Shown here one piece after another: positions 4,511 to 45,700 of a DNA stretch of 64,000 bases. Source of the stretch: Sabellastarte sp. h YS-2021 (taxonomy: Eukaryota; Annelida; Polychaeta; Sabellida; Sabellidae); contig OZ024934.1 in NCBI GenBank assembly GCA_964017235.1, forward strand, positions 60,399,365-60,463,364, read 5' to 3'. The notes beneath the pieces are model-generated. The model did not search any database. It had not been told where the DNA came from and was given only the letters and a program-made list of their open reading frames with translations. Within the stretch, counting starts at the first letter, position 1. Every line of letters begins with the position of its first letter. The translations under genes and the position numbers were made by a program.

Positions 4511-4559
4511 AATAAATAAATTATGAAGCTGTAGGAATTATTAATTAGAGAATAGCTGA

Positions 4560-7329: not shown

Positions 7330-8442
7330 GCACTTTTAAGTTTGGCTACCCTTATTTGACCCTGTAGCAGGGGCCCAAGGTGAAGTCTGACCACATCAAA
7401 AGATTCGCAGCCCATGATTTCCTATAAGTCGTTTTCACATTGCAAACCTTTAGGACCAATAATAAGCAGGAGGGGCCAAGGTCAAATCTGACCACATGAA
7501 AAGATTTGCAGCCCATGACTTCCTATAAGTTGTTTTCATATTAATGAGTTATTTGAGAAGTACTGGCTATCTGCAATACTTCTAGAGATAATTCGCATTT
7601 ACTCATTTTGAGTAGGTGAATAATTAGCTACGGGTCTGAAACTTCACCAAGTGAAAACTCTCTCAAAAGTAGGCGAATGAGTTATTTGAGAAAAATTGGC
7701 TATCTATAATACTTTTAGAGATAATTCGAATTTACTCATTTTCAGTAGGTGAGTAATTACCTATGGGTCTGAAACTTCAAAAAGTAGGTGAATGAGTTAT
7801 TTAAGAAAAACTACCAAAAGTAGGTGAATGAGTTATTTAAGAAAAATTTGCTATCTGCAATACTTTTAGAGAAAATGCAGAATTACTCATTAGTAGGCAA
7901 GTAATTTAGCCATAGGCCTAATTTAGACCTAAAGCCTACCAGTAGAATACTGTGGTGCACCCTGTAATATACCTTGCAAACTTGAGAAGGCAAGCTATAA
8001 TATTTTTTTCGTTAGAGCGGTAATGGTGAAATCTCTCTACACACTGCGGTTATCCAGTGGATACAATGATTTACTCAACAGTGAGAACCTGAAAGTAGAT
8101 ATTGGTAAGCTATGCCATGACATAGAGGTCTGCAATTTCACTCTGTTATAGCTGACCAAAAATTATGTGAATAACATATTTAAACAAAATACTGTAAATG
8201 TAATAGTTTTCATGTTATAACTGATTTACTCAACAGTGATAACCTCAAAGTAGCTATTACTCAGCTATGCAATGAGCTACATGTCTGAATTTTTTTCTAT
8301 GTTATAGCTGACCCAAAATTAGGTGAACAACATATTTAAGCAAAATACTGTAAATGCAATAGTCTTCAAGTTACAACTGATTTACTCAATAGTGAGAACC
8401 TGAAAATAGCTATTGCTCAGCTATGCCATGAGCTATAAGTTT
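7330..8442. repeat. Composite C/E/D tandem repeats, left of the DIRS insertion
   Basis: Two family C monomers (7330-7550, GCCCAAGGTCAAATCTGACCACAT-like) are followed by several short units with AAAAGTAGGTGAATGAGTTATTT (about 7550-7920). Then come family D units (from about 7970) with TCAGCTATGCCATGAGCTA and CTGACCCAAAAGTAGG. The last D unit stops at the DIRS left end and resumes at 14647. The 7970 start (CTTGCAAACTTGAGAAGG) also begins the D block at about 44850. Confidence 0.7.
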
Positions 8443-8483
8443 GCAAATTTTAATTAGTAAATTAAATTTTTATTAGTTAATAC

Positions 8484-14627: not shown

Positions 14628-14646
14628 ATGTATTAACGCAATGAAA

Positions 14647-15772
14647 CTGTAATTTCACGACGTTATAGCTGACCCAAAAGTAGGTGAACAACATATTTTA
14701 ACAAAATACTCCAAATGCACTATTTTTCAAGTTACAAATCATTTACTCAACAGTCAGTACCTGAAAATAGCTATTGCTGTGCCATGAGCTACAGGTCTGT
14801 AATTTCACTATGTTATAGCTGACCCAAAAGTAGCTGAATAACATATTTACACAAATTTCTGTAAATGCAATAGTTTTCCAATTACAACTGATTTACTCAA
14901 CAGTGTGAACTTCAAAGTAGCTATTACTCAGCTATGCAATGAGCCACAGGTCTGGAACTTCACTATGTTATAGCTGATCCCAAAATAGGTGAATAACATA
15001 TTGAAACAAAATACTCTAAATGTAATACTTTTGAAGTTATAAGTAATTTACTCAACAGTGATAACCTAAAAGTAGCTATTACTCAGCTATGCCATGAGCT
15101 ACAGGTCTGAAATTTTACTATGTTATAGCTGACCCAAAAGTAGCTGAATAACATATTTATACAAAATTGTGTAAATGCAATAGTTTTCAAGTTACAAGTG
15201 ATTTTACTCATGATTGAAGTTACTGAAAAGCCCAAAAGTAGCTATTACTCACTTAGCTATTGAAACAGACACCCAAGTTACTCACCATGTTGTAGCTATG
15301 AAAAAAGTATCTGAATAACATATTTTAACAAAATGCTCTAAATGCAACACTTTTCAAGTTATAAGTGATTTGGTGCATGATTTCATGAATTTTAATGCAT
15401 TTTAGACATTTTTGTCTACCACAGGCCTAATTTAGACATAAAGCCTACCAAAAAGATAGGGTGGCGAGTCCTCTAGCATACCAAGCCACCTGTCAAATAT
15501 GAAAGAAATCTGGAAAGAAATGTGGACTGTAGGTTGCTAACAAGCAATATTCCACATTTTAGACATTTTTGTCTACCACAGGCCTAATTTAGACATAAAG
15601 CCTACCAAAAAGATAGGGTGGCGAGTCCTCTACCATATCAAGCCACCTGCCAAATATGAAAGAAATCCGGAAAGAAATGTGGACTGTAGGTCGCTAACAA
15701 GAAATCTCTGCGGACGCGGACGACAACGATGATGAATCCATAGTATCCCCGCTTTGCGTCGGGGATACAATA
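14647..15772. repeat. Family D tandem repeats and right terminus, right of the DIRS insertion
   Basis: D monomers of about 155 bp resume here and run to about 15390. A two-copy repeat of about 140 bp follows (about 15395-15700, GACATTTTTGTCTACCACAGG and GATAGGGTGGCGAGTCCTC). The right end is a CGGACGCGGACGACAACG tract and a hairpin at about 15740-15763 with stem GTATCCCCG/CGGGGATAC. This terminus has the same design as the ends of families A and H. Confidence 0.7.
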
Positions 15773-16433: not shown

Positions 16434-19400
16434 CCAAAACAAGAGGAGAGTGCCCGTGAACGGGCACTGTGTCAGCTGACTGAATGTTTTTGATTTGTGA
16501 TGGTGATAATGAGAGGAATGCATAATTATCAGGGAAAGGGCTGTACAGAAATACAGTAAATGGTAACTGAACAGCATGTTCGAAAGATATTCCGAAGCTG
16601 ACAGAAGAAAAGGACAAAAAAGTTGTGCCCTGCAAATGGTATTATGAAATAAAGTAACAAGGTAATTGTTTAAGTGTAAAAAGTAGGTTAAAAATATTTA
16701 AAGAAATACTATAAATGCAATATCCTCGTTCGACCATGAAGAAGGGGTCCAAAGGTCAAATCTGACCATACCAAAAGATTCCCAGCCAAAGAATTTAGGA
16801 TGGTTTACCATCCCAAACCTCTCGGACCAATAATAAGTGAGTCATAGGCACTTTTTAAGTTTGGCTATCCTTGTTTGACCTTGACGGAGGGGTCCAAGGT
16901 CAAATCCGACCACACAAAAAAATTCCCAGCCCATGATTTCCTGTAGCTTGTTTACCATCCCAAACCTGTAGGACCAATAATAAGCGAGTTCTAAGCAATT
17001 GTAAGTTTGGCTATCCTCAATTGACCTTGAAGGAGGGGTCCCAGATCAAATCTGACCACACCAAAAGAATCCCAGCCCATGATTTCCTATATGTTGGTTT
17101 ACCATCCCAAACCTCCAAGACCAATAATACGCGAGTTATAAGCACTTTAAGTTTGGCTATCTTCGTTTGACTTGGAAGGAGGGGTCTAAGGTGAAATCCG
17201 ACCACACCAAAAGATTCCCAGCCCATGATTTTCTATAGGTTGGTTTTCCATTCCAAACCTCTAGGACCAATAATAAGCGAGTTATAAGCACTTTTAAGTT
17301 TGGCTATCCTCATTTGACCTTGAAGGAGGGGTCCAAGGTGAAATCCGACCACACCAAAAAATTCCCAGCTCATGATTTTCTATAGGTTGGTTTTCATTCC
17401 AAACCTCTAGGACCAATAATAAGCGAGTTATAAGCACTTTTATGTTTGGCTATCCTCATTTGACCTTGAAGGAGGGTTCCAAGGTCAAATCGGACTATAT
17501 TAACAGATTCCCAGCCCATGATTTCCTACAGGTTGGATACAATGATTTACTCAACAGTGAGAACCTGAAAGAAGCTATTGCTCAGCTATGCCATGACATA
17601 GAGGTCTGCAATTTCACTATGTTATAGCTGACCAAAACGTCTGTGAATAACATATTTAACAAAATACTCTAAATGTAATAGTTTTCAAGTTACAACTGAT
17701 TTACTCAAGAGTGAGAACCTCAAAGTAACTATTACTCAGCTATGCAATGAGCTACAAGTCTGAATTTTTGCTCTGTTATAGCTGACCTAAAAGTAGGTGA
17801 ACAACATATTTAAGCAAAATACTGTAAATGCAATAGTTTTCAAGTTACAACTGATTTACTCAATAGTGAGAACCTGAAAATAGCTATTGCTCCACTATGC
17901 CATGAGCTATAGGTCTGTAATTTCACTATGTTATAGCTAACCCAAAAGTAGGAGAACAATATATTTTAACAAAATACTCCAAATGCAATATTTTTCAAGT
18001 TATAGCCGATTTACTCAACAGTCAGTGCCTGAGAATAGCTATTGCTCAGTTGTGCCATGAGCTACAGGTCTGTAATTTCACTATGTTATAGCTGACCCAA
18101 AAGTAGCTGAATAACATATTTGCACAAATAAGGCAATAGTTTTCCAATTACAACTGATTTACTCAACAGTGAGAACTTCAAAGTAGCTATTACTCAGCTA
18201 TGCAATGAGCCACAGGTCTGGAACTTCACTATGTTATAGCTGACCCCAAAATAGGTGAATAACATATGAAACAAAATACTCTAAATGCAATAGTTTCCAA
18301 GTTATAAGTGATTTACTCAACAGTGATAACCTAAAAGTAGCTATTACTCAGCTATGCCATGAGCTACAGGTCTGAAATTTTACTATGTTATAGCTGACCC
18401 AAAAGTAGCTGAATAACATATTTATACTAAATTCTCTAAATGCAATAGTTTTCAAATTATAAGTGATTTACTCAACATTGAGAACTTCAAAGTAGCTATT
18501 ACTCAGCTATGCAATGAGTCACAGGTCTGGAACTTCACTATGTTATAGCTGACCCCAAAATAGGTGAATAACATATTGAAACAAAATACTCTAAATGCAA
18601 TAATTTCCAAGTTATAAGCGATTTACTCAACAGTGATAACCTCAAAGTAGCTATTACTCAGCTATGCCATGAGCTACAGGTCTGAAATTTTACTATGTTA
18701 TAGCTGACCCAAAAGTAGGTGAACAACATATTTAAGCAAAATACTGTTCATGCAATAGTTTTCAAGTTACAACTGATTTACTCAATAGTGATGACCTAAA
18801 AGTAGCTATTACTCAGCTATGCCATGAGCTACAGGTCTGAAATTTTACTATGTTATAGCTGACCCAAAAGTAGCTGAATAACATATTTATACTAAATTCT
18901 CTAAATGCAATAGTTTTGCAATTACAACTGATTTACTCAATAGTGAGAACCTCAAAGTAGTTATTACTCAGCTATGCAATGAGCTACAGGTCTGAAATTT
19001 TACTATGTTATAGCTGACCCAAAAGTAGGTGAACAACATATTTAAGCAAAATACTGTAAATGCAATAGTTTTGAAGTTACAACTGATTTACTCAATAGTG
19101 ATGACCTAAAAGTAGCTATTACTCAGCTATGCCATGAGCTACAGGTCTGAAATTTTACTATGTTATAGCTGACCCAAAAGTAGCTGAATAACATATTTAT
19201 ACGAAATTCTCTAAATGCAATAGTTTTCCAATTACAACTGATTTACTCAATAGTGAGAACTTCAAAGTAGCTATTACTCAGCTATGCCATGACCTACAGA
19301 TCTGAAATTTCACTATGTTATAGCTGGCCCAAAAGTAGCTGAATAACATATTTATACCAAATTCTCTAAATGCAATAGGTTTTAAGTTACAAGTGATTTA

Positions 19401-20411
19401 CTCAATAGTGAGAACTTCAAAGTAGCTATTACTCAGCTATGCAATGAGCCACAGATCTGAAACTTCACTATGTTATAGCTGATCCCAAAATAGGTGAATA
19501 ACATATTGAAACAAAATACTGTAAATGCAATAGTTTCCAAGTTATAAGCGATTTACTCAATAGTGATAACCTAAAAGTAGCTATTACTCAGCTATGCCAT
19601 GAGCTACAGGTCTGAAATTTTACTATGTTATAGCTGACCCAAAAGTAGCTGAATAACATATTTATACGAAATTCTCTAAATGCAATAGTTTTGAAGTTAT
19701 AAGCGATTTACTCAACAGTGATAACCTAAAAGTAGCTATTACTCAGCTATGCCATGAGCTACAGGTCTAAAATTTTACTATGTTATAGCTGACCCAAAAG
19801 TAGCTGAATAACATATTTATACGAAATTCTCTAAATGCAATAGTTTTTAAGTTACAAGTGATTTTACTCATGATGGAAGTTACTGAAAAGCCCAAAAGTA
19901 GCTATTACTGACTGAGACAGGCACCCAACTTACTCACCATATTGTAGCTATGAAAAAAGTAGCTGAATAACATATTTTAACAAAATGCTCTAAATGCAAC
20001 ACTTTTCAAGTTATAAATGATTTTGTGCATGATTTCATGAATTTTAATGCATTAAAAATTATTAAAAAAATTTATTTAAAAAAAAGTAAGACAGATCCAG
20101 GTCTCATACTCACACAAGAGAATCTACCTGTGGCCTAGTACATATATGCAAGATATGAGAGAAATCCCTGCAATAGTCACTGAGAAAATTGTGATTAAGT
20201 GTTGAAATTTTCACACTTTTGGTGGGGGTACCCCCCTTGTAATGTCTCTAGCAAACAGACGAACAGACAGATTTGCATGCCTTGAACAATTTTTCATCCT
20301 CGATAGATAAGGTATCTTTTAAAAAAAACAGCACGTATCTAGGCCTTGTAGTTTTGGAGGAGAAGTTGTTCACGCGGACGCGTACGCCCACGCCGCAGAG
20401 TGACGACATAA
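16434..20411. mobile_element. Family G array element, copy 1
   Basis: The left end is a perfect hairpin AGTGCCCGTGAACGGGCACT (about 16448-16467) followed by GTGTCAGCTGACTG. Inside are about six family C monomers (16725-17530, about 145 bp each) and then about 16 family D monomers (17530-20050, about 155 bp each). The right end has a CGCGGACGCGTACGCCC tract and stops at GACGACATAAAAA. The terminal hairpin present in copy 2 is missing here. It matches 34073-38070 almost base for base at an offset of 17638. No protein is encoded. Confidence 0.8.
17530..20050. repeat. Tandem array D, ~155-bp monomers, in G copy 1
   Basis: Each unit carries CAAGTTACAACTGATTTACTC, GTAGCTATTACTCAGCTATG, GAGCTACAGGTCTG, TATGTTATAGCTGACCC and AACATATTT. 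Units differ in small, recurring ways (gaataacatatttatac against gaacaacatatttaagc), which suggests partial homogenisation of a few subtypes. Confidence 0.85.
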
Positions 20412-25135: not shown

Positions 25136-25517
25136 AGTGTATTCAATAAAACAGTGAAACACATTTATATGGTATTCCCAATCCGAAAAAATCCTCTATC
25201 CAAAAGCAAACAAATTATGGTGATTAGTAAGGCTGCAAGCGAGCCCGAAAATGCGCCTCGATTCCTTGTTTTGGAAGAACCGATTCGGACTCAGTTAATC
25301 GCTTGATTATCGCCTATAAGCTTCATCATATTTTGACATATTACACCTTATAAAATGATTAAAATACACACAATAGGAAAGAATGTTGATATTTCATGGA
25401 ATTTGGGAATAAAGAAGCATTTACAATGCAAAATACAGGAAACTTTAACCATCTTTATATTGTGAGATTTGAGGCGTCTTCGAAATATGTTACATTAAAA
25501 TGCTGTCTTATAAAATA
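25136..25517. other. Unique intron sequence
   Basis: AT-rich. Nothing is recognised. Confidence 0.4.
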
Positions 25518-27526
25518 GCATCAGAGATGCCCGTACCCCACAGCCTAGGGAAATATTTTCAACACCATGAGATACAGAAGCACTGTACCAGTACAAAGTT
25601 CAGGATACTTTCAGAGCACTGTCAGTTATATAAAGTTCCAAAAAATGTTTAAATGCAGAAATAATGTTTAAAAGAAAGATAATGCATGTAAAGATGGAGT
25701 ATTAAAACAAGTCAATTCAATAACAAGATGCCAGCATTAATCAGTAAACTAAAATTCAACATTCTTTATCTACATCTGCATGGCCGAATTATGGTTTAGA
25801 TGTTATGAATATTACCATGCATACAGAAGTGGTAATACATTTAATGAAAGCTTATGTGTGGTGTTGGAGCAAAATCTGTGGCTCACTTGATGAAATTCTA
25901 TCTCTTACAATGGGAAGTTATGAAAGTAAAATTCTTAATAAATTCTAATATGAATTAACAGTGCTTAATCTGCATCAAAAGACAGACCCAAAGGTGCAAC
26001 AAGATTTTAAAGGTCAAGGTCACTACGACAAGGTCAAAGGTCAAATTAAGGTCACACCATGATAATACACACCTGTGGCCCCTGACCAATGTCCCTACCA
26101 AGTATCAACTTCCTACACCTTACGGTTTCCGAGATATAGCCCGGACAAGATTTTATAGGTCAAGGTCACTACGGCAAGGTCAAAGGTCAAATCAAGGTCA
26201 GATCATGACGTTGCACAGCTACACCCCCTAACCAATGTCTCTACTAAGTATCAACTTCCTACACCTTACGGTTTCTGAGATATAGCCTGGACAAGATTTT
26301 ATAGGTCAAGGTCACTATAGCAAGGTCAAATCCTGATCAGACCATGACGTTGCACACCTACACCCCCTAACCAATGTCCCTGTCAAATATCAACTTCCTA
26401 CACCTTACAGTTTCCGAGATATAGCCCGGACAAGATTTTATAGGTCAAGGTCACTACGGCAAGGTCAAAGGTCAAATCAAGATCACACCATGACGTTGCA
26501 CAACTACACCCCCTAACCAATGTCCCTACCAAGTATCAACTTCCTACACCTTATGGTTTCTGAGATATAGCCCGGACAAGATTTTCAAACTTAAGGTCAC
26601 TACGACAAGGTCAAAGGTCAAATCAAGGTCACACCATGATGTTGCACAACTACACCCCATAACCAATATCCCTACCACGTATCAACTTCCTACACCTTAC
26701 AGTTTCCGAGATATAGCCCGGACAAGATTTTATAGGTCAAGGTCACTACGGCAAGGTCAAAGGTCAAATCAAGGTCAGACCATGACGTTGCACAACTACA
26801 CCCCCTAACCAATGTCCCTACCAAGTATCAACTTCCTACACCTTACGGTTTCTGAGATATAGCCCGGACAAGATTTTCAAACTCAAGGTCACTACGGCAA
26901 GGTCAAAGGTCAAATCAAGGTCAGACCATGACGTTGCACAACTACACCCCCTAACCAATGTCCCTACCATATATCAACTTCCTACACCTTACAGTTTCTG
27001 AGATATAGCCCGGACAAGATTTTATACGTCAAGGTCACTACGGCAAGGTCAAAGGTCAAATCAAGGTCACTCCATGACGTTGGACACCTACACCCCCTAA
27101 GCAATATCCCTACCAAGTATCAACTTCCTACACCTTACAGTTTCCGAGATATAGCCCGGATAAGATTTTATAGGCCAAGGTCACTACGGAAAGGTCAAAG
27201 GTCAAATAAAGGTCACACCATGACGTTGCACAACTACACCCCCTAACCAATGTCCCTACCAAGTATCAACTTCCTACACCTTACGGTTTCCGAGATATAG
27301 CCCGGACAAGATTTTCAAACTCAAGGTCAAAGGTCAAATCAAGGTCAGACCATGACGTTGCACACGTACACCCCCTAACCAATGTCCCTACCAAGTATCA
27401 ACTTCCTACACCTTATGGTTTCTGAGATACAGCCTGCACAAACTTTTTCCCGCCGTCCGCCCGCCCGCCCATCCGGACACCATAGGTGAAAACAATACCC
27501 TGACAGCCCTTAAGGGCTGTGGGGTA
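25518..27526. mobile_element. Family B array element, copy 2 (complete)
   Basis: The left hairpin GCATCAGAGATGC (25518-25530) is followed by GTACCCCACAGCC. A unique leader of about 450 bp includes GAAGTGGTAATACATTTAATG. About ten monomers of 146 bp follow (25985-27430), then a CCGCCGTCCGCCCGCCCGCC tract, and the right hairpin (27499-27525) ending GGGCTGTGGGGTAAAA, the inverse of the left motif. Each monomer carries AAGGTCAAAGGTCAAATCAA. No ORF spans it. It sits between exons 5 and 6 of the host gene. Confidence 0.8.
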
Positions 27527-27861
27527 AAAAGCACTATTACACACACATTTAATGTTTGCAAATGTTTAAAAATAAAAACTGAAAACGAAAACCGCTTATA
27601 TTGGAAGAATATATAAATATATTCATTAAATATAAAGAAAAATCAAATTTTGTAGCAGTTTTTGTGTCTATTTTTAGTTGTTTTTGAAGACCTGGTTCAC
27701 TTTCTTGACTTGAGTTTAGTCACTGAATCATTTTGTTTCCAAGTAACCAAAGAATCCTTGCAGCCCTAGTTATTATCCAATTACTGCATATTTTAATTTA
27801 GTCTGTTTAAATATGTGAAGCACTAATGTACAAATAAACATCCAATCACTACATTTCTCAC
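27527..27861. other. Unique intron sequence
   Basis: AT-rich. No repeat is recognised. It adjoins the donor of the large exon. Confidence 0.4.
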
Positions 27862-29992: not shown

Positions 29993-30504
29993 CTGAAAAC
30001 ATTACAGTATATTAATGTATTTTAAAGCATCACACTTGTTGGGAACTTTTATTTAATCAGACATCTCTGTTACAAAACGCAAGCAGTGTTTTTTGCAGGA
30101 ATTAGCACTGAATAAGACAACTCTTATTCATTCAAACTTCAATAAAAAAACTTAAGTTGTCAATAAACCAACTAAACGACAAATCTTTTTTCAAAGTGTT
30201 TCTGGTAATTTTTCAGTCAATTTAAAACACTGTGTAGCTAAATTGTATTTATTTTATCTTTTTCAAACTAAAACTTCAATGAATACCTCAATATTACACA
30301 AGAAACCAAGGGGGATTAAATTTTCAATCTCTAACTGTTTTTAACTGTCTCTAGTCAAGATTCAGATTTTTTGGTAACAAGGTGCAAGTCAAGCAAAAAG
30401 TTGTGGTCAATGCAAAAAAATTTATGAAAAAAAAATAATAATAAATAAAATGTCAAATATCTGTGACAATAAGAAAAATTAAGGAAAAAACAAGACCACT
30501 GTCG
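29993..30504. other. Unique intron sequence
   Basis: AT-rich. It contains no recognised gene or array. Confidence 0.4.
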
Positions 30505-33098
30505 CAGTATTTATCTCCCGCCAGGTATTAAGCAGAAATTAAGAAATACAGGTAGTTTCTGCACGATTGCACAGATGACCCAACTGAACCTTGAAGCAGG
30601 GGTCAGAGATCAAACTGTGACAATGCAAAAGGTTTGTAGGACATGATTTCCTACAGGTTGTTTTCACATTAGAAGTTCCAGACCAACTAGAATATCATCA
30701 GTTTGACGCAGTGCACCCCCATATGGGACATGGTATAATGTAACATACAGATAATTCAGTCATTCTGAAATGAGACAATTTTATTCTCCACCAAAATTCA
30801 AAATGGTGCCAAAATTTGGAAAATACAAGCATTCTGACGCATGCATTTATCTCCCGCTGTATAAATTAGACGTACTAAAGATAGTGGAATATAAATTTTC
30901 TTGTGAGATGGAGGCGCATGTAGAAGTGACAAGTTTAATGTTTGATTGCAATACTTTTAAAGACAAAAGGCATTTACTCATTTTAGTAGCCATTACTCTG
31001 TCATCCACAGAGCTACAGTTCTGTAACTTTATTATGCAGTAGATCAACCCAAAGTAGGTAAGGACGTATTTAGAAGAAATTGCCTATCTGTAACACTTTT
31101 AGAGATAAAAGACATTTATTTAGTTTAGTGGCTATTACTCTGCCATCCAAAGAGCTACAGTTCTGCAACTTCACTATGTGGTAGATCACACAAAAGTAGG
31201 TGAATGACTTATTTAGAAGAAACTGACTACCTGTAATACTTTTACAGATAAAAGACATTTACTCATTTTAGTAGCTATTACTCAGCTATCCAAAGAGCTA
31301 CAGTTCTGCAAGTTCACTGTGGTACATCACCCAAAAGTAGGTGAATGACTTATTTAGAAGAAATCGCCTACCTATAATACTTAGAGATAAAAGACATTTA
31401 CTCATTTTAGTAGCTATTACTCTGCCATCCATAGAGCTACAGTTCTGCTACTTCACTATGTGGTACATCACCCAAAAGTAGGTGAATGACTTATTTAGAA
31501 GAAACTGCCTACCTGTAATACTTTTAGCGATAAAAGACATTTACTCATTTAGTAGCTATTACTCAGCTATCCAAAGAGCTACAGTTCTGCAAGTTCACTA
31601 TGTGGTAGATCACCCAAAAGTAGGTGAATGACTTATTTAGAAGAAATTGCCTACCTGTAATACTTTTAGAGATAAAAGACACTTACTCACTTTAGTAGCT
31701 ATTACTCAGCTATCCAAAGAGCTACAGTTCTGCATCTTCACTATGTGGTAGATCACCCAAAAGTAGGTGAATGATTTATTTAGAAGAAATTACCTAGCTA
31801 TAATACTTTTAGAGATAAAAGACATTTACTCATTTTAGTAGCTATTACTCAGCTATCCAAAGAGCTACAGTTCTGCAACTTCACTATGTGGTACATCACC
31901 CAAAAGTAGGTGAATGATTTATTTAGAAAAAATTGCCTACTTGTAATACTTTTAGAGATAAAAGACATTTACTCATTTTAGTAGCTATTACTCAGCTATC
32001 CAAAGAGCTACAGTTCTGCAAGTTCACTATGTGGTACATCACCCAAAAGTAGGTGAATGACTTATTTAGAAGAAATTGCCTACCTATAATACTTTTAGCG
32101 ATAAAAGACATTTACTCATTTTAGTAGCTATTACTCAGCTATCCAAAGAGCTACAGTTCTGCAACTTCACTATGTGGTAAATCACCCAAAAGTAGGTGAA
32201 TGACTTATTTAGAAGAAATTGCTACCTATAATACTTTTAGAGATAAAAGACATTTACTCATTTTAGTAGCTATTACTCAGCTATCTAAAGAGCTACAGTT
32301 CTGCAACTTCACTATGTGGTACATCACCCAAAGTAGGTGAATGACTTATTTAGAAGAAATTGCCTACCTGTAATACTTTTAGAGATAAAAGACATTTACT
32401 CATTTAGTAGCTATTACTCAGCTAGCTACTACTCGCTTATGGCATGCAATAGAAACCCCAAACTATGTACCATCTTATACCTAAGGATAAAGTAGCTGAA
32501 CAATATATTTTAGGAAAATACTGTAACTGCAATAGTTTTGGAGTTACAATGGCTTTACTCAACAGTCAGAATTTCAAAGTAGCTATTACTCAGCTATCCA
32601 AGGTGCAACAGGTCTGAAACTTTACTATGTCATAGCTTACCAAAAAGTAGATGGACAACATATTTGAAAAGATTTCCCTAAGTTTAATACTTTTGAAGAT
32701 ATTTGACATTTACTTCTTCTGTTATTTAGCTACAAATGAGAAAATAGCCATTACTCACTTATGGCATGCAATAGAACCCCAAACTATGTACCATCTTATA
32801 GCTAAGGACAAAGTAGCTGAACAACATATTTCAAGAAAAAACTCTAACTGCAATACTTTTTGAGTTATGAGTCCTTTACTCAAAATAGATAAAATTGCTA
32901 TTACTCACTTATCTTTAGGCCTAAGTCCACAAAACCAAAAAAATTTTCAAGGGCATGAAAATTCATTAGGACAATTAATTTACAAAAAATCTGTAGCTGT
33001 AGCAGTTTTGGAGAAATCTGCGCGACACACTAACGCACGCACGCACAGGATGCATTTTATAATCTCCCTCCCGGGCTAAAGCCCGGCGGGAGATAATA
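30505..33098. mobile_element. Family E array element (possibly two nested starts)
   Basis: The left motif TTTATCTCCCGCC (about 30510) recurs as TTTATCTCCCGC at about 30845, and returns inverted at the right end as GGCGGGAGATAATAA (about 33082-33096). The right hairpin is CCCGGGCTAAAGCCCGG, just after a CGCGCGACACACTAACGCACGC tract. A family C monomer lies at about 30590-30680 and an H-like start (AACTAGAATATCATC) at 30687. About ten E monomers of about 142 bp fill 30940-32430, followed by diverged D-like units (32430-32920). No protein is encoded. Confidence 0.65.
30940..32430. repeat. Tandem array E, ~142-bp monomers
   Basis: About ten units carry CTTTTAGAGATAAAAGACATT, TACTCATTTTAGTAGC, TATTACTCAGCTATCCAAAG, GAGCTACAGTTCTGCAACTTC, ACCCAAAAGTAGGTGAATGA and TTATTTAGAAGAAATTGCC. 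The core order matches family D monomers, pointing to common ancestry. Confidence 0.85.
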
Positions 33099-34072
33099 AA
33101 AATTTTCATAGGTGTAATTTTACTAGGGTCTATAGTACCCAAAGGGTCCAAAATTTGCTTGAAATTGCTCTATCCCTAACAGTTTTCAAGACAATGAACT
33201 TTTGCCTTTTCCGGCAAAATTCAAAATGGCGGCTGCAATTTGATAAATAAAAATTTTGCTCAGAGACATTATATCCGGGGTCTATAGTACCACGGGGTCA
33301 AAATTTGCTAGAAATCACTCTATCAGTTACAACTGATTCACTCAACAGTGAGAACCTGAAAGTAGCTATTGCTCAGCTATGCCATGTGCTACAGGTCTGC
33401 AGTCTTACTGTGAAAACTGACCCAAAAGTAAGTGAATGACATATTTTAACAAAAACTCTAAATGCAATAGTTTTCAAGTTACAACTGATTTAATCAACAG
33501 TGAGAATCACAAAATAGCTTTTACTTAGCTATGCAATGAGCTACAGAGCTGCAATTTCACTATTTTATAACTGACCCAAAAGTAGGCGAATAACATATTT
33601 AAAGAAAATACACTAAATGCAATAGCTTTCAAGTTACAAATGATTAACTGAAGTGAGAATCTCAAAATAGCTATTGCTCAGCTATGCAATGAACTACAGG
33701 TCTGCAATCTTACTATGTTATAGCTGATCCAAAAAGAAGTGAAAGATACATTTAAACAAAATATTCTAAAGACAATACTTTTCAAATTACAAGTGAGAAT
33801 CTCAAGATAGCTTGCAATACTTTTCAAGTTACAAGTGAGAATCTCAAGATAGCTATTGCTCAGTTTATGCAATGAACTACAGGTCTGCACTTTTATTATG
33901 TTATAGCTGACCCAAAAGTAGGTGAATAACATATTTCAACAAAATACTCTAAATGCAATAGTTTTCCAGTTACAAGTGATTTACACTCAACTGTGACACA
34001 CTAACAGACACATGTACACATACACAGGATGGTTTCCTAATCTCCCTCCTGGGCTATGCCTGGCGAGAGATA
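33099..34072. repeat. F/I-like units, D array and a decayed E-type terminus
   Basis: Two short units with GGGTCTATAGTACC and TTCAAAATGGCGGC (33104-33320) lead into about four D monomers (33330-34000). The right end, CTCCCTCCTGGGCTATGCCTGG then CGAGAGATAC (34042-34070), is a diverged form of the family E right hairpin. It therefore looks like the right part of a second E-type element. Confidence 0.55.
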
Positions 34073-37000
34073 CAAAACAAGAGGAGAGTGCCCGTGAACG
34101 GGCACTGTGTCAGCTGACTGAATGTTTTTGATTTGTGATGGTGATAATGAGAGGAAAGCATAATTATCAGGGAAAGGGCTGTACAGAAATACAGTAAATG
34201 GTAACTGAACAGCATGTTCGAAAGATATTCCGAAGCTGACAGAAAAAAAGGACAAAAAAGTTGTGCCCTGCAAATGATATTATGAAATAAAGTAACAAGG
34301 TAATTGTTTAAGTGTAAAAAGTAGGTTAAAAATATTTAAAGAAATACTATAAATGCAATATCCTCGTTCGACCATGAAGAAGGGGTCCAAAGGTCAAATC
34401 TGACCATAGCAAAAGATTCCCAGCCAAAGAATTTAGGATGGTTTACCATCCCAAACCTCTCGGATCAATAATAAGTGAGTCATAGGCACTTTTTAAGTTT
34501 GGCTATCCTTGTTTGACCTTGACGGAGGGGTCCAAGGTCAAATCCGACCACACAAAAAAATTCCCAGCCCATGATTTCCTGTAGCTTGTTTACCATCCCA
34601 AACCTGTAGGACCAATAATAAGCGAGTTCTAAGCAATTGTAAGTTTGGCTATCCTCAATTGACCTTGAAGGAGGGGTCCCAGGTCAAATCTGACCACACC
34701 AAAAGAATCCCAGCCCATGATTTCCTATATGTTGGTTTACCATCCCAAACCTCCAAGACCAATAATACGCGAGTTATAAGCACTTTAAGTTTGGCTATCT
34801 TCGTTTGACCTGGAAGGAGGGGTCTAAGGTGAAATCTGATCACACCAAAAGATTCCCAGCCCATGATTTTCTATAGGTTGGTTTTCCATTCCAAACCTCT
34901 AGGACCAATAATAAGCGAGTTATAAGCACTTTTAAGTTTGGCTATCCTCATTTGACCTTGAAGGAGGGGTCCAAGGTGAAATCCGACCACACCAAAAAAT
35001 TCCCAGCTCATGATTTTCTATAGGTTGGTTTTCATTCCAAACCTCTAGGACCAATAATAAGCGAGTTATAAGCACTTTTATGTTTGGCTATCCTCATTTG
35101 ACCTTGAAGGAGGGTTCCAAGGTCAAATCGGACCATATTAACAGATTCCCAGCCCATGATTTCCTACAGGTTGGATACAATGATTTACTCAACAGTGAGA
35201 ACCTGAAAGAAGCTATTGCTCAGCTATGCCATGACATAGAGGTCTGCAATTTCACTATGTTATAGCTGACCAAAACGTCTGTGAATAACATATTTAACAA
35301 AATACTCTAAATGTAATAGTTTTCAAGTTACTACTGATTTACTCAACAGTGAGAACCTCAAAGTAACTATTACTCAGCTATGCAATGAGCTACATGTCTG
35401 AATTTTTGCTCTGTTATAGCTGACAGGTGAACAACATATTTAAGCAAAATACTGTAAATGCAATAGTTTTCAAGTTACAACTGATTTACTCAATAGTGAG
35501 AACCTGAAAATAGCTATTGCTCCGCTATGCCATGAGCTATAGGTCTGTAATTTCACTATGTTATAGCTAACCCAAAAGTAGGTGAACAATATATTTTAAC
35601 AAAATACTCCAAATGCAATATTTTTCAAGTTATAGCCAATTTACTCAACAGTCAGTGCCTGAGAATAGCTATTGCTCAGTTGTGCCATGAGCTACAGGTC
35701 TGTAATTTCACTATGTTATAGCTGACCCAAAAGTAGCTGAATAACATATTTGCACAAATTTCTGTAAAGGCAATAGTTTTCCAATTACAACTGATTTACT
35801 CAACAGTGAGAACTTCAAAGTAGCTATTACTCAGCTATGCAATGAGCCACAGGTCTGGAACTTCACTATGTTATAGCTGACCCCAAAATAGGTGAATAAC
35901 ATATTGCAACAAAATACTCTAAATGCAATAGTTTCCAAGTTATAAGTGATTTACTCAACAGTGATAACCTAAAAGTAGCTATTACTCAGCTATGCCATGA
36001 GCTACAGGTGTGAAATTTTACTATGTTATAGCTGACCCAAAAGTAGCTGAATAACATATTTATACTAAATTCTCTAAATGCAATAGTTTTCAAATTATAA
36101 GTGATTTGCTCAACATTGAGAACTTCAAAGTAGCTATTACTCAGCTATGCAATGAGTCACAGGTCTGGAACTTCACTATGTTATAGCTGACCCCAAAATA
36201 GGTGAATAACATATTGAAACAAAATACTCTAAATGCAATAATTTCCAAGTTATAAGCGATTTACTCAACAGTGATAACCTCAAAGTAGCTATTACTCAGC
36301 TATGCCATGAGCTACAGGTCTGAAATTTTACTATGTTATAGCTGACCCAAAAGTAGGTGAACAACATATTTAAGCAAAATACTGTACATGCAATAGTTTT
36401 CAAGTTACAACTGATTTACTCAATAGTGATGACCTAAAAGTAGCTATTACTCAGCTATGCCATGAGCTACAGGTCTGAAATTTTACTATGTTATAGCTGA
36501 CCCAAAAGTAGCTGAATAACATATTTATACTAAATTCTCTAAATGCAATAGTTTTGCAATTACAACTGATTTACTCAATAGTGAGAACCTCAAAGTAGTT
36601 ATTACTCAGCTATGCAATGAGCTACAGGTCTGAAATTTTACTATGTTATAGCTGACCCAAAAGTAGGTGAACAACATATTTAAGCAAAATACTGTAAATG
36701 CAATAGTTTTCAAGTTACAACTGATTTACTCAATAGTGATGACCTAAAAGTAGCTATTACCCAGCTATGCCATGAGCTACAGGTCTGAAATTTTACTATG
36801 TTATAGCTGACCCAAAAGTAGCTGAATAACATATTTATACGAAATACTCTAAATGCAATAGTTTTCTAATTACAACTGATTTACTCAACAGTGAGAACTT
36901 TAAAGTAGCTATTACTCAGCTATGCCATGACCTACAGATCTGAAATTTCACTATGTTATAGCTGGCCCAAAAGTAGCTGAATAACATATTTATACGAAAT

Positions 37001-38100
37001 TCTCTAAATGCAATAGGTTTTAAGTTACAAGTGATTTACTCAATAGTGAGAACTTCAAAGTAGCTATTACTCAGCTATGCAATGAGCCACAGATCTGAAA
37101 CTTCACTATGTTATAGCTGATCCCAAAATAGGTGAATAACATATTGAAACAAAATACTCTAAATGCAATAGTTTCCAAGTTATAAGCGATTTACTCAACA
37201 GTGATAACCTAAAAGTAGCTATTACTCAGCTATGCCATGAGCTACAGGTCTGAAATTTTACTATGTTATAGCTGACCCAAAAGTAGCTGAATAACATATT
37301 TATACGAAATTCTCTAAATGCAATAGTTTTCAAGTTATAAGCGATTTACTCAACAGTGATAACCTAAAAGTAGCTATTACTCAGCTATGCCATGAGCTAC
37401 AGGTCTGAAATTTTACTATGTTATAGCTGACCCAAAAGTAGCTGAATAACATATTTATACGAAATTCTCTAAATGCAATAGTTTTTAAGTTACAAGTGAT
37501 TTTACTCATGATGGAAGTTACTGAAAAGCCCAAAAGTAGCTATTACTCACTTAGCTATTGAGACAGGCACCCAACTTACTCACCATATTGTAGCTATGCA
37601 AAAAGTAGCTGAATAACATATTTTAACAAAATGCTCTAAATGCAACACTTTTCAAGTTATAAATGATTTTGTGCATGATTTCATGAATTTTAATGCATTA
37701 AAAATTATTAAAAAAATTTATTAAAAAAAAAGTAAGACAGATCCAGGTCTCATACTCACACAAGAGAATCTACCTGTGGCCTAGTACATATATGCAAGAT
37801 ATGAGAGAAATCCCTGCAATAGTCACTGAGAAAATTGTGATTAAGTGTTGAAATTTCACACTTTTGGTGGGGGTACCCCCCTTGTAATGTCTCTAGCAAA
37901 CAGACGAACAGACAGATTTGCATGCCTTGAACAATTTTTCATCCTCGATAGATAAGGTATCTTTTAAAAAAAACAGTACGTCTCTAGGCCTTGTAGTTTT
38001 GGAGGAGAAGTTGTTCACGCGGACGCGTACGCGGATGCGTACGCGTACGCCCACGCCGCAGAGTGACGACATAATGTCAGCTGACTGACAAGTCAGCTGA
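34073..38100. mobile_element. Family G array element, copy 2 (complete)
   Basis: It has the same left hairpin and GTGTCAGCTGACTG motif as copy 1, the same C block (about 34365-35165) and D block (35165-37690), and offset 17638 for most of its length. The CpG tract is longer here (CGCGGACGCGTACGCGGATG and on). The right end retains a hairpin, GTCAGCTGAC-tgacaa-GTCAGCTGAC (about 38075-38101), which repeats the left motif inverted. Copies 1 and 3 lack this hairpin. Confidence 0.8.
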
Positions 38101-38196
38101 CATAAAAAACCAAAAAAAAAACCCAACTATTTTCACTAGAACCTGCTACCCTGTCATAGCATGTTATTCAGTTTTACATAGAAATCATAGCTTTAC

Positions 38197-38379: not shown

Positions 38380-38836
38380 CTATAAACAGGATGCCAAAAA
38401 AAAAAAAAAAAATGTTAACTTTGAATATCAAAGATGGCATGCTCAAAACTAAAACTTGAGAAAAGTATAATTAGTGAAATATAGTGAAATTAGTGAAATA
38501 ACACAGTTCTCTTTATCACCTTGGATATGAGACATGAGACAGCACATATGTAAATAGCCTACCAATCAGTTCAGCACCACAATGAATATTACAGAAGATT
38601 GATACTATATTTTTACCCAAACCTTTATTCCTATATATAGTAGTGGTGGCATCGTTTACAGAAATCAAAACCGGTTACTGGGGCTTTGAACGAAATCCGG
38701 TATTTCGTATATGCTTGTTACTGGCAGTGATTATTTCTCATGGGGCGTACATGAACCAGAACTTGCAGCTGGAAATGGCTTTCACGAGATTTTAAAACAT
38801 GTAAACATGACTTTTGCTCAATATAAAGTAAAAATA
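38380..38836. other. Unique intron sequence
   Basis: AT-rich with a short poly-A tract near 38395-38412. No gene is recognised. Confidence 0.4.
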
Positions 38837-40030
38837 GCATCAGAGATGCCCGTACCCCACAGCCTAGGGAAATATTTTTAACACCATGAGATACAGAAGT
38901 ACTATATCAGTACAAAGTTCAGGATACTTTCAGAGCACTGTCAGTTATATAAAGGTCCAAACAATGTTTAAATAGAGAAAATAATGTCTAAGAGAAAGAT
39001 AATGCATGTACTCTATCTACATCTGGCATGGCCGAATTATGGTTTAGATGTTTTGAATATTACCATGCATACAGAAGTGGTAATACATTTAATGAATGCT
39101 TAAGTGTGGTGTTGGAACAAAATCTGTGGCTCGCTTGATGAAATACCATCTGTTACAATGGGAAGTTGTGAAAGTAAAATTCTTAATGAATTCTAATATG
39201 ACTATAACAGTGCTTAATCTGCATCAAAAGACAGACCCAAAGGTGCAACAAGATTTTAAAGATCAAGGTCACTACGACAAGGTCAAATCAAGGTAACACC
39301 ATGATGCTGCACACCTACAACTCCTAACCAATGTCCCTACCAAGCATCAACTTCCTACACCTTACGGTTTCCAAGATATAGCCCGGACAGGATTTTATAC
39401 GTCAAGGTCACTACAGCAAGGTCAAAGGTCAAATCAAGGTCAGACCATGACATTGCACACCTACACCCCCTAACCAATGTCCATAGTAAGTATCAACTAC
39501 CAACACCTTATGGTTTCCAAGATATACCCCGGACAAGATTTTATAGGTCAAGGTCACTACGGCAAGGTCAAAGGTCAAATCAAGGTCAGACCATGACGTT
39601 GCACACCCACACCCCCTAACCAATGTCCCTACCAAGTATCAACTTCCTACAACTTACAGTTTCCGAGATATAGCCCGGACAAGATTTTATAGGTCAACGT
39701 CACTACAACAAGGTCAAAGGTCAAATCAAGGTCACACCAAGATGTTGCACACCTACACCCCCTAACCAATGTCCCTACCAAGTATCAACTCCTTACGGTT
39801 TCCGAGATATAGCCCGGACAAGATTTTATAGGTCAAGGTCACTATGGCAAGGTCAAAGGTCAGACTATGACGTTGCACACCTACACATCCTAACCAATGT
39901 CCCTACCAAGTATTAACTTCCTACACCTTACGGTTTCTGAGATACAGCCCGGACAAACTTTTTCCCGCCGCCCATCCGGACACCATTGGTGAAAACAATA
40001 CCCCGACAGCCCTCAAGGGCTGTGGGGTAA
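38837..40030. mobile_element. Family B array element, copy 3 (complete, short array)
   Basis: The left hairpin GCATCAGAGATGC (38837-38849), motif GTACCCCACAGCC and leader closely match copy 2. The array has only about five 146-bp units (39230-39960). The right end has a short CCCGCCGCCC tract and a hairpin at about 40001-40028 ending GGGCTGTGGGGTAAA. A difference of about five monomers from copy 2 shows array-length change within one family. Confidence 0.8.
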
Positions 40031-40233: not shown

Positions 40234-42714
40234 TTAACTAGACCTACGCATTGGAGAACTGATGCAAATTTTTATCCACCGGAAAGACAACTCACCAAAG
40301 CCAGTGAACCAGTTTGACCTTGAAGGAGGGGCCAAAGGTCAAATCTAACAACATTAGAAGATTCCCTGTCCAAGATTTCCCGTGAGTTGGTTTCACATTG
40401 CAAACCTCTAGGATCAATAATAAGCAAGTTATAAGCACATTCAGGTTTGGCTGTCCTCATTTGATGTTGAAGGAGGGGCTCAAGGTCAAATCTGACCACA
40501 TCAAAAGATTCCCAGCCCATGATTTCCTATAAGTTGGTTTCACATTGCAAACCTCTAGGACCAATAATAAGCAAGTTATAAGCACTTTTAAGTTTGGCTA
40601 TCCTGATTTGATCTTGAAGGAGGGGCCCAAGGTCAAATCTGATGACATCAAAAGATTCCCTTGAACGAGGGGCCCAAGGTCAGATCTGAACACAACAAAA
40701 GATTCCCAGCCCATGATTTCCTAAGAAAAAGTTTCACATTGCAAACGTCTAGGACCAATAATAAATGAGTTATAAGTACTTTCAAGCTTGGCTAGCCTCA
40801 TTTGACCTTGAAGGAGGGGCCCAAGGTCAAATCTGACCACATCAAAAGATTCCTAGCCCATGATTTTCTATTAGTTGCTTTCACATTACAAACCTGTACG
40901 ACCAATAATAAGAGAGTTATAAACACTTTTACCTTTGGCTATCCTTGTTTGACCTTGAAGGAAAGGCCCAAGGTCAAATCTGACCACACCAAAAGATTCC
41001 CAGCCCATGATTTCCTATAGGTTGGTTTCACAATGCAAACCTCTAGGACCAATAATAAGCAAGTTATAAGCACTTTTAACTTTGGCAATCCTTGTTTGAC
41101 CTTGAAGGAGGGGCCAAAGGTCAAGTCGGATCACACCAGAAGATTCCCAGTCCATGATTTCCTATAGGTTGGTTTGCCATCCCAAACCTGTAGGACCAAT
41201 AATAAGTGAGTTATAAGTACTTTTAAGTTTGGCTATAGATCCTCGTTTGACCTCGAAAGAGGGGCCAAAGGTCAAATCTGACCACACCAAAAGATTCCCA
41301 GCCCATGATTTCCTATAGGTTGGTTTACCATCCCAAACCTCTAGGACCAATAAGAAGCGAGTTATAAGCACTTTTAAGTTTGGCTATAGATCCTCGTTTG
41401 ACCTAGAAAGAGGGGCCAAAGGTCAAATCTGACCACACCAAAAGATTCCCAGCCCATGATTTCCTATAGGTTGGTTTACCATCCCAAACCTCTAGGACCA
41501 ATAAGAAGCGAGTTATAAGCACTTTTAAGTTTGGCTATAGATCCTCGTTTGACCTAGAAAGAGGGGCCAAAGGTCAAATCTGACCACACCAAAAGATTCC
41601 CAGCCCATGATTTCCTATACTTTGGTTTACCATCCCAAACCTCTAGGACCAATAAGAAGCGAGTTATAAGCACTTTTAACTTTGGCTATCCTCGTTTGAC
41701 CTCGAAAGAGGGGCCAAAGGTCAAATCTGACCACACCAAAAGATTCCCAGCCCATGATTTCCTATAGGTTGGTTTACCATCCCAAACCTCTAGGACCAAT
41801 AATAAGCGAGTTATAAGCACTTTTAACTTTGGCTATCCTCGTTTGACCTCGAAAGAGGGGCCAAAGGTCAAATCTGACCACACCAAAAGATTCCCAGCCC
41901 ATGATTTCCTATAGGTTGGTTTACCATGCCAAACCTCTAGGACCAATAATAGGTGAGTTATAAGCACTTTTAAGTTTGGCTATAGATCCTCGTTTGACCT
42001 CGAAAGAGGGGCCAAAGGTCAAATCTGACCACACCAAAAGATTCCCAGCCCATGATTTCCTATAGGTTGGTTTACCATCCCAAACCTCTAGGACCAATAA
42101 TAAGCGAGTTATAAGCACTTTTAACTTTGGCTATCCTTGTTTGACCTCGAAAGAGGGGCCAAAGGTCAAATCTGACCACACCAAAAGATTCCCAGCCCAT
42201 GATTTCCTATAGGTTGGTTTACCATGCCAAACCTCTAGGACCAATAATAGGTGAGTTATAAGCACTTTTCAGTTTGGCTATCCTCGTTTGACCTTGAAGG
42301 AGGGGCCCAAGGTTAAATCTGACCACACCAAAAGATTCCCAGCCCATGATTTCCTATAGGTTGGTTTACCATCCCAAACCTCTAGGACCAATAATAAGTG
42401 AGTTATAAGCACTTTTAGGTTTGGCTATCCTCGTTTGACCTCGAAGGAGGGGCCCAAGGTCAAATCTGACAATATCAGAAGATCTGCAGCACATGATTTC
42501 CTATAGCTTGGCTTCACATTGCAAACCTTTAGGACCAATAATAAGGGTGATATAGGCACTTTTAAAGTCCACTATGTGGGTTACTTTGGCACTCCGTGGA
42601 TGACCTTGAATTAAGAGCTTCAAGATCAAATGTCTACAAGGTTGTAGAGGACATGTATATCTGTTGTACATATCACCTATGAAGAGATTCAACCTTCTAC
42701 CTATGAGAATCAGC
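40234..42714. mobile_element. Family C array element (right end truncated)
   Basis: It starts with AACTAGACCTACGCATTGG and a hairpin GCATTGG-AGAA-CTGATGC. Read on the other strand this is hairpin, short spacer, CTAG, TT, which is the shape of a Helitron 3' end. About 15 monomers of 147-151 bp fill 40300-42560 (GGTCAAATCTGACCACACC, GATTCCCAGCCCATGATTTC, CAAACCTCTAGGACCAATAA). The tail (42560-42714) matches 22050-22210 of the H element but stops before any right hairpin, at the start of G copy 3. One monomer subtype has an extra ATAGATCC. Confidence 0.7.
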
Positions 42715-42715
42715 C

Positions 42716-45700
42716 AGTAGAACAAGATGAGAGTGCCCGTAAACGGGCACTGTGTCAGCTGACTGAGTGTTGTTGATTTGTGAAGGTAATAATGAGAGGA
42801 AAGCATAATTATCAGGGAAAGTGCTGTACAGAAGTACAGTAAATGGTAATTGAACAGCATGTTCAAAAGAAACTAGAAATAGGACGCCCTGTTGCTTGTA
42901 GCTGCGACATATGAATAGAAACAGGATAGCATAGAAGAACACACATTATCATGTGTAATGTCCACCCTATCAACCTTTTGCAAAAATTGTACAGTAATCT
43001 TACAAGGCCCTGTTTCATCTGTAAAATATATCAATGATGCTTAAATATTTATTAGTATACATGTAAATTATTTCAGCTTCACGCCTTTTTGCATTGGTTG
43101 GGTAGAAAATTTTGACGAAATCGCTCTATCTTGCTTGGTTAAGGAGATAGAAGCGAATTTCCGTTTTTCAATTTTTGGCAAAAATTCAAAATGGCTGCCA
43201 TATGTGGGAAGAGGAATATTTTTTGAAAACTGCCAAGGGTACACTGGTCAGATACCCTGTGGGTTCATTGAAATCGCTCTATCTCGCATGGTTAAGGAGA
43301 CAGAAGCAAACTTGCGTTTTTTCATTTTGAGGCAAAAACTGAAAAATTCAAAATGGCCGCCACTTTTGAGGAGAGTAAAATATTTTGAAAATTGCCAATA
43401 GTACATTGATTAGATACCCTGTGGGTTGAAAATTTCTACGAAACAAGATGACTGCCAAAAGTGGCGAAAATTGAAATGTTTCAAATTCACATAGAATACT
43501 CCTCTACTACCATATAGGTTAAAAATTCAGTCGAAATCGCTCTATCTCTTACAGTTTCCGAGATATGAACATTTTTGGGTTTTCCCGCAAAAATCCAAGA
43601 TGGCCGCCAAAAGTGGCGAAAAAATTTAAATTTTTCAATTTTGTATAGGATACTTTGCTATCACCCTACGGGTCAAAAATTCTGTTAAAATCACTCTATC
43701 TCTTGCGGTTTCCGAGATATTAACATTTTCAGTTTTCCGCAAAAATCCAAGATGGCCACCAAAAGTGGCGAAATTGAAATTTTTCAACTTCACATAGAAT
43801 ACTCTCTCCATACCCTGTGGGTCAAAAATTCTGTCGAAATCGCTCTATCTCTTACGGTTTCCGAGATATTAACATTTTTTATTTTTCCGCAAAAATTCAA
43901 GATGGCCGCAAAAGTGGCGAAAATTGAAATTTTTCAATTGCACATAGAATACTCTACCACTACCATGCGAGTCAAAATTTCTGTGGAAATGGCTTTATCT
44001 CTTACGGTTTCCGAGATATTAACATTTTTTTGTTTTTCTGCAAAAATTCAAGATGGCCGCCAAAAGTGGCGAAAATTGAAATTTTTCAATTTTGTATAGA
44101 ATACTTTCCTACTACCCTACGGGTCAAAAATTCTGTCCAAATCGCTCTATCTCTTACGGTTTCTGTCCCCAGGGGGGTGGACATAATTCTGAAGCTGACA
44201 GAAGAAAGGACAAAAAAGTTGTGCCCTGCAAATGGTATTATGAAGGAAAGTAACAAGGTAACTGTTTAAGTGCAAAAAGTAGGTTAAAACATATTTAAAG
44301 AAATATTGCAAATGCAGTATCCTCGTACGACCTTGAAGAAGGGGTCCAAGGTCAAATCCAACCACACAAAAACATTCCCAGCCCATGATTTCCTATAGGT
44401 TGGTTTACCATCCCAAACCTCTAGGACCAATAATAAGCGAGTTATAAGCACTTTTAAGTTTGGCTAGCCTCGTTTGACATTGAAGGAGGGGTCAAAGGTC
44501 AAATCTGACCACACCAAAAGATTCCCAGCCCATGATTTCCTACAGGTTGGTTTACCATCCCAAACCTCTAGGACCAACAATAAGGGAGATATAAGCACTT
44601 TTCATGACTGACAAAGAAACACCTGTGGCGGCCATCTTGGTTTTCAAAATAAGGCCAAAAATATTCCCAGTCAAGATTTTATAATGAGGAACATATTCTG
44701 CGAATTTGAGATCTCTACCTATAATACCCTTTGCTCTAGAGGGCCAACAAAAGTCCTTGTTTAAAGTCGAATAAACATCCCTGGCGACCATCTTGTTTTT
44801 CAAAATGAGGCCAAAAATATTCTCAGGCAACATTTTATGGTTATTAATATATCCTGCAAACTTGAGAAGGCTAGCTATAATATTTTTTTCATTAGAGCGG
44901 TAATGGTGAAATCTCTCTACACACTGCAGCTATCCAGTCGATACAATGATTTACTCAATAGTGAGAACCTGAAAGTATCTATTGCTCAGCTATGCCATGA
45001 CATAGAGGTCTGCTATTTCACTATGTTATAACTGACCAAAAATTATGTGAATAACATAAACAAAATACTCTAAATACTGTAATAGTTTTCAAGTTACAAC
45101 TGATTTACTCTACAGTTATAACCTCAAAGTAGCTATTACTCAGCTATGCAATGAGCTACAAGTCTGAATTTTTACTATATTATAGCTGACCCAAAAGTAG
45201 GTGAACAACATATTTAAGCAAAATTACAACTGATTTACTCAATAGTGAGAACCTGAAAATAGCTATTACTCAGCTATGCCATGAGCTATAGGTCTGTAAT
45301 TTCACTATGTTATAGCTGACCCAAAAGTAGGTGAACAACATATTTTAACAAAATACTCCAAATGCAATATTTTTCAAGTTACAACTGATTTACTCAACAT
45401 ACAGTACCTGAAAATAGCTATTGCTCAGTTGTGCCATGAGCTACAGGTCTGTAATTTCACTATGTTATAGCTGACCCAAAAGTAGCTGAATAACATATTT
45501 ACACAAATTTCTGTAAATGCAATAGTTTTCAAGTTATAAGTGATTTACTCAACAGTGATAACCTAAAAGTAGCTATTACTCAGCTATGCCATGAGCTACG
45601 GGTCTGAAATTTTACTATGTTATAGCTGACCCAAAAGTAGCTGAATAACATATTTATACGAAATTCTCTAAATGCAATAGTTTTCAAGTGACAAGTGATT

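Follow-up and report, generated by a model that had tools for sequence, protein, structure and literature searches.

Neighbouring HINE copies in the genome of the polychaete Sabellastarte sp. (1.786 Gb in 647 contigs), even those of different families, are mostly co-oriented across stretches of tens to hundreds of kilobases, after which the orientation flips; this is well supported for parts of two chromosomes. HINE clustering is already known (PMC4067079), and previous papers on orientation (PMC5148889) and on adjacent copies (PMC2267711) have nested or neighbouring pairs as their subject; statements on cited work refer here to the excerpts of it that were available. In the open-licence PMC literature searched, orientation domains of Helitron/Helentron elements were the subject of no title or abstract, and to judge from these searches the regional polarity is undescribed. 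The analysis centred on a 64,000-nucleotide stretch (C8:60399365-60463364, hereafter the window; positions without a contig name are window coordinates, extended in both directions), whose families A, B, E, F and G and 15.7-kb element are HINEs, i.e., new families of a known kind.

Orientation domains on C8

When the window was compared with itself, 1082 matches were on the plus strand versus 5 on the minus strand, and none of these five was HINE-to-HINE. A window-derived library was then applied to the 264 kb around the window. To the left of 78.9 kb, 39 of 40 clusters had the window orientation (the single exception, at -89 kb, showed no end match), and to the right all 19 had the opposite one. 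Counted in base pairs by orientation, HINE sequence amounted to 72,084 versus 1,712 on the left and 48,998 versus 0 on the right. All exact ends left of the flip were on the minus strand (22/22 five-prime and 21/21 three-prime ends, 43/43 together), and all ends right of it were on the plus strand (12/12 and 9/9, 21/21 together). Ends were mapped with window-derived seeds in these 264 kb of C8, in 50 kb of C1 and in eight 3-kb loci; the seeds contain the end bases, and the ends quoted are therefore those of seed-like copies. Four F matches in C8 and one in C1, which represented the second arm of the same hairpin, were dropped from the end counts, as were short-G matches inside a counted long G end. 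The left-hand 5' sites at -93458 and -77618, short-G ends with long-form remains ahead of them, contribute one count each to the 22.

The flip is located at about 78.9 kb, between two B pieces that abut in opposite orientation. A promoter or CpG island at this position was considered and then dropped as evidence, as the adjacent CpG-richer bins contain a G end (80724) and the terminal repeat of a retroelement (79571-79766). Target composition was rejected as a cause: outside HINEs, the left domain has 1829 occurrences of AAAA and 1681 of TTTT.

Orientation domains on C1

For C1, the first 100 exact places each of B, F and G were used. Among the matches listed, pairs within 50 kb had the same rather than opposite orientation in ratios of 47:13 (B-F), 42:14 (B-G) and 80:9 (F-G), and for each combination 0 of 99 cyclic shifts gave a value as high. 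Agreement among these listed matches was strongest below about 100 kb and faded across 200-400 kb. A two-state model of B+F+G (n=187, below 12.45 Mb, among the matches listed) yielded a mean domain of 143 kb, a minority of 6.5% and a log-likelihood gain of 30.6, and 20 shuffles of this set gained at most 3.0. The corresponding model of F+G (n=188, below 26 Mb, among the matches listed) had a mean domain of 147 kb, a 1.4% minority and a gain of 35.6. Seven runs of at least six elements, with families mixed, spanned 75 to 516 kb among the matches listed. One of them (1.43-1.69 Mb) includes B copies at a regular spacing of ~15 kb (1.43-1.52 Mb) and may involve local duplications among these copies. 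In 50 kb of C1 chosen inside a one-way run, 11/11 clusters had the same orientation.

Over the whole genome, the two strands were equally common for all three motifs: the B motif had 7347 forward and 7425 reverse matches (5 + 6 for the control pattern read backwards), the F 3' motif 4347 + 4253 (control 0) and the G 3' motif 4060 + 4077 (control 0). Their abundance is far above chance.

Orientation of other repeats

A SINE with 10,306 exact 36-mer matches in the genome was rejected as a neutral control because it proved to be weakly co-oriented with the HINEs. Its orientation was that of the nearest HINE in a ratio of 17:2 within 25 kb and 22:7 within 50 kb, with 4-6 of 99 shifts as high, and 6 of the 7 copies on C8 (-77082, -37254, -26317, -925, 70489, 72822 and 163538) match the HINE domain. 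Taken alone, the SINE formed no clear domains (two-state gain 1.3). C8 repeats remaining after masking gave same-domain pairs of 59:17 and 49:1 and cross-domain pairs of 30:79, and were also rejected as a control, since most of the 26 listed groups were HINE modules absent from the library. Non-HINE repeats are mixed in orientation, not random in every case: at least six groups of the C8 stretch (11, 17, 19, 21, 24 and 25) have copies against the domain, and several retroelement copies, including DIRS-like ones, agree with the C8 domains. Given the weak co-orientation of the SINE and these agreeing retroelement copies, the cause of the polarity may not be specific to rolling-circle elements.

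Element families in the window

On the minus strand, the order of parts is TT, subTIR, complementary IR, microsatellite, satellite-like array, 3' subTIR, palindrome and T-rich flank. The preliminary description had listed these parts correctly and read them in the reverse direction, and its "right hairpin with the inverted motif" is the 5' end. The motifs that it quoted are present in the window at the positions given, and the focal B element contains all the parts it named. The shared modular design holds for six end types (A, B, E, F, G and the 15.7-kb terminus), whereas a further family, H, was not recognised. SubTIRs of 11-15 bp near both ends and the complementary 5' IR are present in A, B, E, F and G of the window, and so is the palindrome beside the 3' subTIR, with the termini of A and F located further out. 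In the 15.7-kb element the subTIR scheme was seen at the 5' end, and its 3' end was not found. Scanning the window de novo for the TT/IR/3'-partner scheme was abandoned as too noisy owing to low-complexity arrays (99 minus and 88 plus candidates; 17-35 in 6 randomised sequences), and one exact-pattern scan each of viral contigs and of genome contigs gave no match.

All window elements are on the minus strand. The focal B element (25516..27527) has its 5' end at 27527 (TTACCCCACAGCC) and its 3' end at 25516 (GATGCTA|T), and its empty site is known. End matches and an empty site are also available for a second B element (38835..40030), and B is further represented by a copy without the 3' part (4558..5886, 5' end at 5886), which adjoins a run of 34 C at 4475-4508, and by a 5' fragment (52655..52752, 5' end at 52752). 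One A element (1..3520, 5' end at 3520) runs on past the window start, and the other (55296..56909, 5' end at 56909) has an approximate 3' limit. The 15.7-kb element consists of an inner part (7313..8452, 3' limit approximate) and a 5' part (14647..15770, 5' end TTGTATCCCCG) whose array is related to G. It is interrupted at 8453-14646 by a DIRS/Ngaro-like retroelement with minus-strand frames (9161-12624 and 12374-14380) and inverted terminal repeats (8459-8656 / 14455-14655, 96.5%). Two G elements, at 16440..20411 and 42723..46245, have the short 5' end TTATGTCGTC, and a third, at 34078..38105, has the long one (TTATGTCAGCTGAC). Nested in the second of these is an F element (42873..44186), for which other G copies provide the empty site. 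Additional F elements occupy 46912..52330, with a 28-copy array of 169 bp, and 61525..64000, extending to 65554 in adjoining DNA. An E element (30491..33096) is followed by an E-like piece (33097..34075) that ends with TTGTATCTCTCGCC at 34075 and has an approximate other limit. Finally, 40290..42600 is a 147-bp array such as occurs in G, for which ends were looked for and not found. Outside the HINEs, a self-complementary stretch (72% over about 130 bp) was seen at 54476-54599.

Exact ends and empty sites

The families had been described as having unrelated ends. This was too strong, because five of the six share TT[A/G]TNTC at the 5' end, i.e., A (TTATATCCCC), the 15.7-kb terminus (TTGTATCCCC), E (TTATCTCCCG), F (TTATGTCCAC) and G (TTATGTCAGC), but B does differ, its 5' end (TTACCCCACA) lacking the heptamer. 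The exact 5' ends are TTATATCCCCAGACG in A, TTGTATCCCCG in the 15.7-kb element, TTATCTCCCGCC in E, TTATGTCCACC in F, TTATGTCAGCTGAC in G and TTACCCCACAGCC in B. They are preceded by A in 6/9 A matches and 6/7 kept F matches, and by TTT in 8/11 B and 6/7 long-G matches. The G copies at 20411 and 46245 start at the internal TTATGTCGTC, a second TTATGTC located 31 bp inside the long form (compare 38105), as though cleavage at this heptamer had moved inward by one step.

At the other side, the 3' end was CTAG|TT in 6/6 F matches, about 70 bp beyond the hairpin, CTTG|TT in 8/8 G matches, GCTA|T in 13/17 B matches and CTTG in 5/5 E matches, three of the latter with common sequence beyond. All A matches (6/6) extend beyond the hairpin. 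The earlier equation of hairpin and terminus thus fails on the 3' side of A and F; this corrects the anatomy and not the class. CT[A/T]G before a T is common to the 3' ends of F, G, the Rep-bearing element described below and part of E. A monomer of ~155 bp occurs in both G and the 15.7-kb element, and E has it at about 68% identity, which means that arrays cross end types. The common end cores suggest few cleavage specificities combined with variable hairpins, and they sharpen the question of whether one Rep serves many end types.

Four empty sites, two of F and two of B, were available from insertions into repeats with uninterrupted copies, and they had no target-site duplication beyond T runs. 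In one repeat F is inserted between A and T without duplication (GAA^TTTTGTA), and its site in G is GGAA^TATCTTT, with one base altered adjacent to the insert. The two B sites are T4 runs in which element T's are inseparable from target T's, leaving the exact B limits ambiguous. A cut-and-paste element with terminal inverted repeats would also have inverted motifs close to both ends, as seen here. However, the two F sites lack a duplication (in B the T run conceals a few bases), the ends are asymmetric and a PF14214-bearing element has a like design, making such a transposon scarcely credible. Assignment to canonical Helitrons (5' TC, 3' CTRR, A^T target) was rejected, since the 5' ends start with TT and only F has both CTAG and A^T. 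The HINE/Helentron reading initially proposed was upheld by the fit of the architecture to published definitions, by the four empty sites and by the two copies of the Rep-bearing element with a like end design.

A Rep-bearing relative

Searching the genome for Helitron_like_N (PF14214) gave 24 matches (36/36 candidates scored). Fifteen of these had E values below 1e-17, and the open frames that contain the matches reach 2245 aa. The ends of a Rep-bearing element were partly read from two copies, C3:168674076 and C2:137362922. After its 5' hairpin GGCGGGTTGCGTGTAACCAACCCGCC come a GTCC/GTCT microsatellite and then tandem repeats (about 165-185 bp), and the complement GCGCAACCCGCC precedes the 3' end GACCCTCTTG|T, beyond which the two copies diverge. 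DUF6570 is located upstream of PF14214 in the same frame. The element has the same end design with another end sequence, and a 1.4-kb derivative with its ends is present at 123521-124910. The 5' hairpin occurs twice (C3:168665501-168668000), each time with tandem repeats behind it, and does so in both of the copies read. The Rep-bearing copies of this genome that were examined yielded no autonomous partner with matching ends for any of the families A, B, E, F and G.

The Rep-bearing family has 6 places on C1 below 28.1 Mb. Five have a B, F or G neighbour within 50 kb, with four matching the nearest one in orientation and one opposing it; for the sixth, the nearest is 60 kb off and opposed.

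Host genes around the flip

Pfam analysis of 20 ORFs of the region identified Fibrinogen_C in one and a LINE endonuclease in another, leaving 18 without a match. Host exons were therefore placed by a small codon score, for which nine stretches of this region served as the training set, and weak exons are tentative. Left of the flip, minus-strand exons were detected from 53 kb to about 4 kb, with weaker ones as far as -11 kb, and on its right side plus-strand exons were detected at 139.8-162 kb; elements near detected exons are thus mostly sense. The exons at 4108-53048 (minus strand, at least eight candidates, the tested ones without a Pfam match) belong to a host gene. We presume that it resembles PRR12/QSER1.

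The left domain also contains a plus-strand fibrinogen-domain gene (Fibrinogen_C, E 7.5e-44), with exons between -33.4 and -23.6 kb that were joined into one gene by our own grouping. The domain crosses this gene and reaches -99.8 kb, and in about 60 kb of it beyond the gene no host exon was detected by the codon score. Among the fibrinogen-domain exons are a HINE (-31968 to -31056) that belongs to the Rep-bearing family and a SINE (-26317), both antisense to the gene and concordant with the domain.

Possible causes of the polarity

Little is known about the way in which Helitron-type elements enter their targets in animals. Strong regional orientation across end types implies either a directional host process on one strand that guides insertion or very strong strand-specific selection. 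We propose that a Rep nuclease would nick a 5' site starting with TT (TT[A/G]TNTC in five of six families) and a 3' site CT[A/T]G before T (for B, GCTA before T), and that the sense strand would be peeled off and, still single-stranded, pasted at A^T or into T runs with no target-site duplication. Hairpins could be free to vary in sequence because the cut-site core and hairpin shape would matter more. Since one strand is pasted, the exposed target strand would fix the orientation. If this strand is mainly the lagging-strand template at replication forks, orientation would record fork direction over roughly 100-500 kb and would flip at initiation or termination zones. Our confidence in this reading as a whole, i.e., Rep-nicked HINEs inserted as single strands mainly into the lagging-strand template with an orientation equal to fork direction, is evenly divided. 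For fork direction as the likeliest cause of the polarity, the scales are likewise about level.

Replication, transcription and selection each predict domains. With transcription, the sense strand would be pasted into the non-template strand of R-loops or transcription bubbles, elements would be sense and flips would be gene boundaries. Consistent with this, elements at 4-53 kb are sense among minus-strand exons, those right of the flip lie among plus-strand exons, and agreement is strongest below about 100 kb; moreover, Helraiser favours promoters and bodies of expressed genes (PMC4778049). However, the left domain passes the plus-strand fibrinogen-domain gene and the stretch without detected host exons, and the HINE and SINE among the fibrinogen-domain exons are antisense, which counts for replication over genes. 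The same applies to the mixed-family runs of up to 516 kb among the matches listed for C1, and the 1.4% minority of F+G over 26 Mb of C1, again among the matches listed, would leave small room for unbiased intergenic copies. As few host genes could be placed and the argument concerns essentially one gene, transcription is disfavoured weakly, and we regard it as rather unlikely. As an origin or a promoter, the flip is a candidate site only.

Purifying selection could act on random insertions if one orientation were purged from introns, for example because of splice or poly-A signals relative to the gene, and such selection on the sense/antisense bias of intronic retroelements is well known. It appears improbable here because the bias is near-complete across families with different ends and arrays and also holds where exons went undetected. 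Domains might even have arisen with no directional process, by local hopping, segmental duplication or loss of inverted array pairs, and near-identical copies in the window (two G at 98%, two F at 95.8%) and the regularly spaced B copies at C1 1.43-1.52 Mb point in this direction. Nevertheless, families with different ends agree, the counted ends have differing flanks and opposite B pieces abut at 78.9 kb, and a purely local origin is therefore highly improbable.

If fork direction is indeed the cause, a map of it in the germ line could be obtained from sequence alone, and eukaryotic rolling-circle transposition would be tied to the fork-coupled HUH elements of bacteria. That insertion at forks is strand-specific as in bacterial IS608, and that the fixed copies, numbering in the tens of thousands, amount to a germ-line map of fork direction and initiation zones, is a possibility to which we give slightly less than an even chance.

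Comparison with known systems

Both the modular design and the end diversity are already documented in PMC4067079 and PMC7492417. The diversity noted in the preliminary description is real and, as published for oyster, not new: PMC7492417 reports 11 Cg_HINE elements in one genome, with ends and arrays related or unrelated. Pacific oyster Cg_HINE elements resemble the families described here in part order, the presence of several families, related or unrelated ends and arrays, T-rich targets, lack of target-site duplication and an array in single orientation within the element. As far as text comparison allows, their end and monomer sequences are different. In addition, the available text reports that oyster HINEs integrate in both orientations, with no link to autonomous elements, and does not report domains. 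Members of the Helentron/HINE/DINE-1 group (PMC4067079) share with our families subTIRs, IR, palindrome, microsatellite or tandem repeats, as well as T-rich insertion and variable T's at ends, whereas in F the 3' subTIR and palindrome are further inside.

Helraiser insertions have CTAG or CTTG before T and A^T targets (PMC4778049). Canonical Helitrons of this type are similar to the window families in the A^T target of F, the 3' CTAG/CTTG before T and the absence of target-site duplication; however, the window families start with TT and not TC at the 5' end and have inverted subTIRs.

IS608 and ISDra2 target the lagging-strand template for insertion, with an orientation that follows replication (PMC5371812). 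These IS200/IS605 elements are bacterial and, as elements, non-homologous to HINEs, for which the fork direction is inferred; the likeness, if the replication reading is right, is that orientation tracks a regional direction, and it does not imply membership. By analogy, if the flip at 78.9 kb were an origin, the sense strand of the elements on both sides would be the lagging-strand template, as in IS608/ISDra2.
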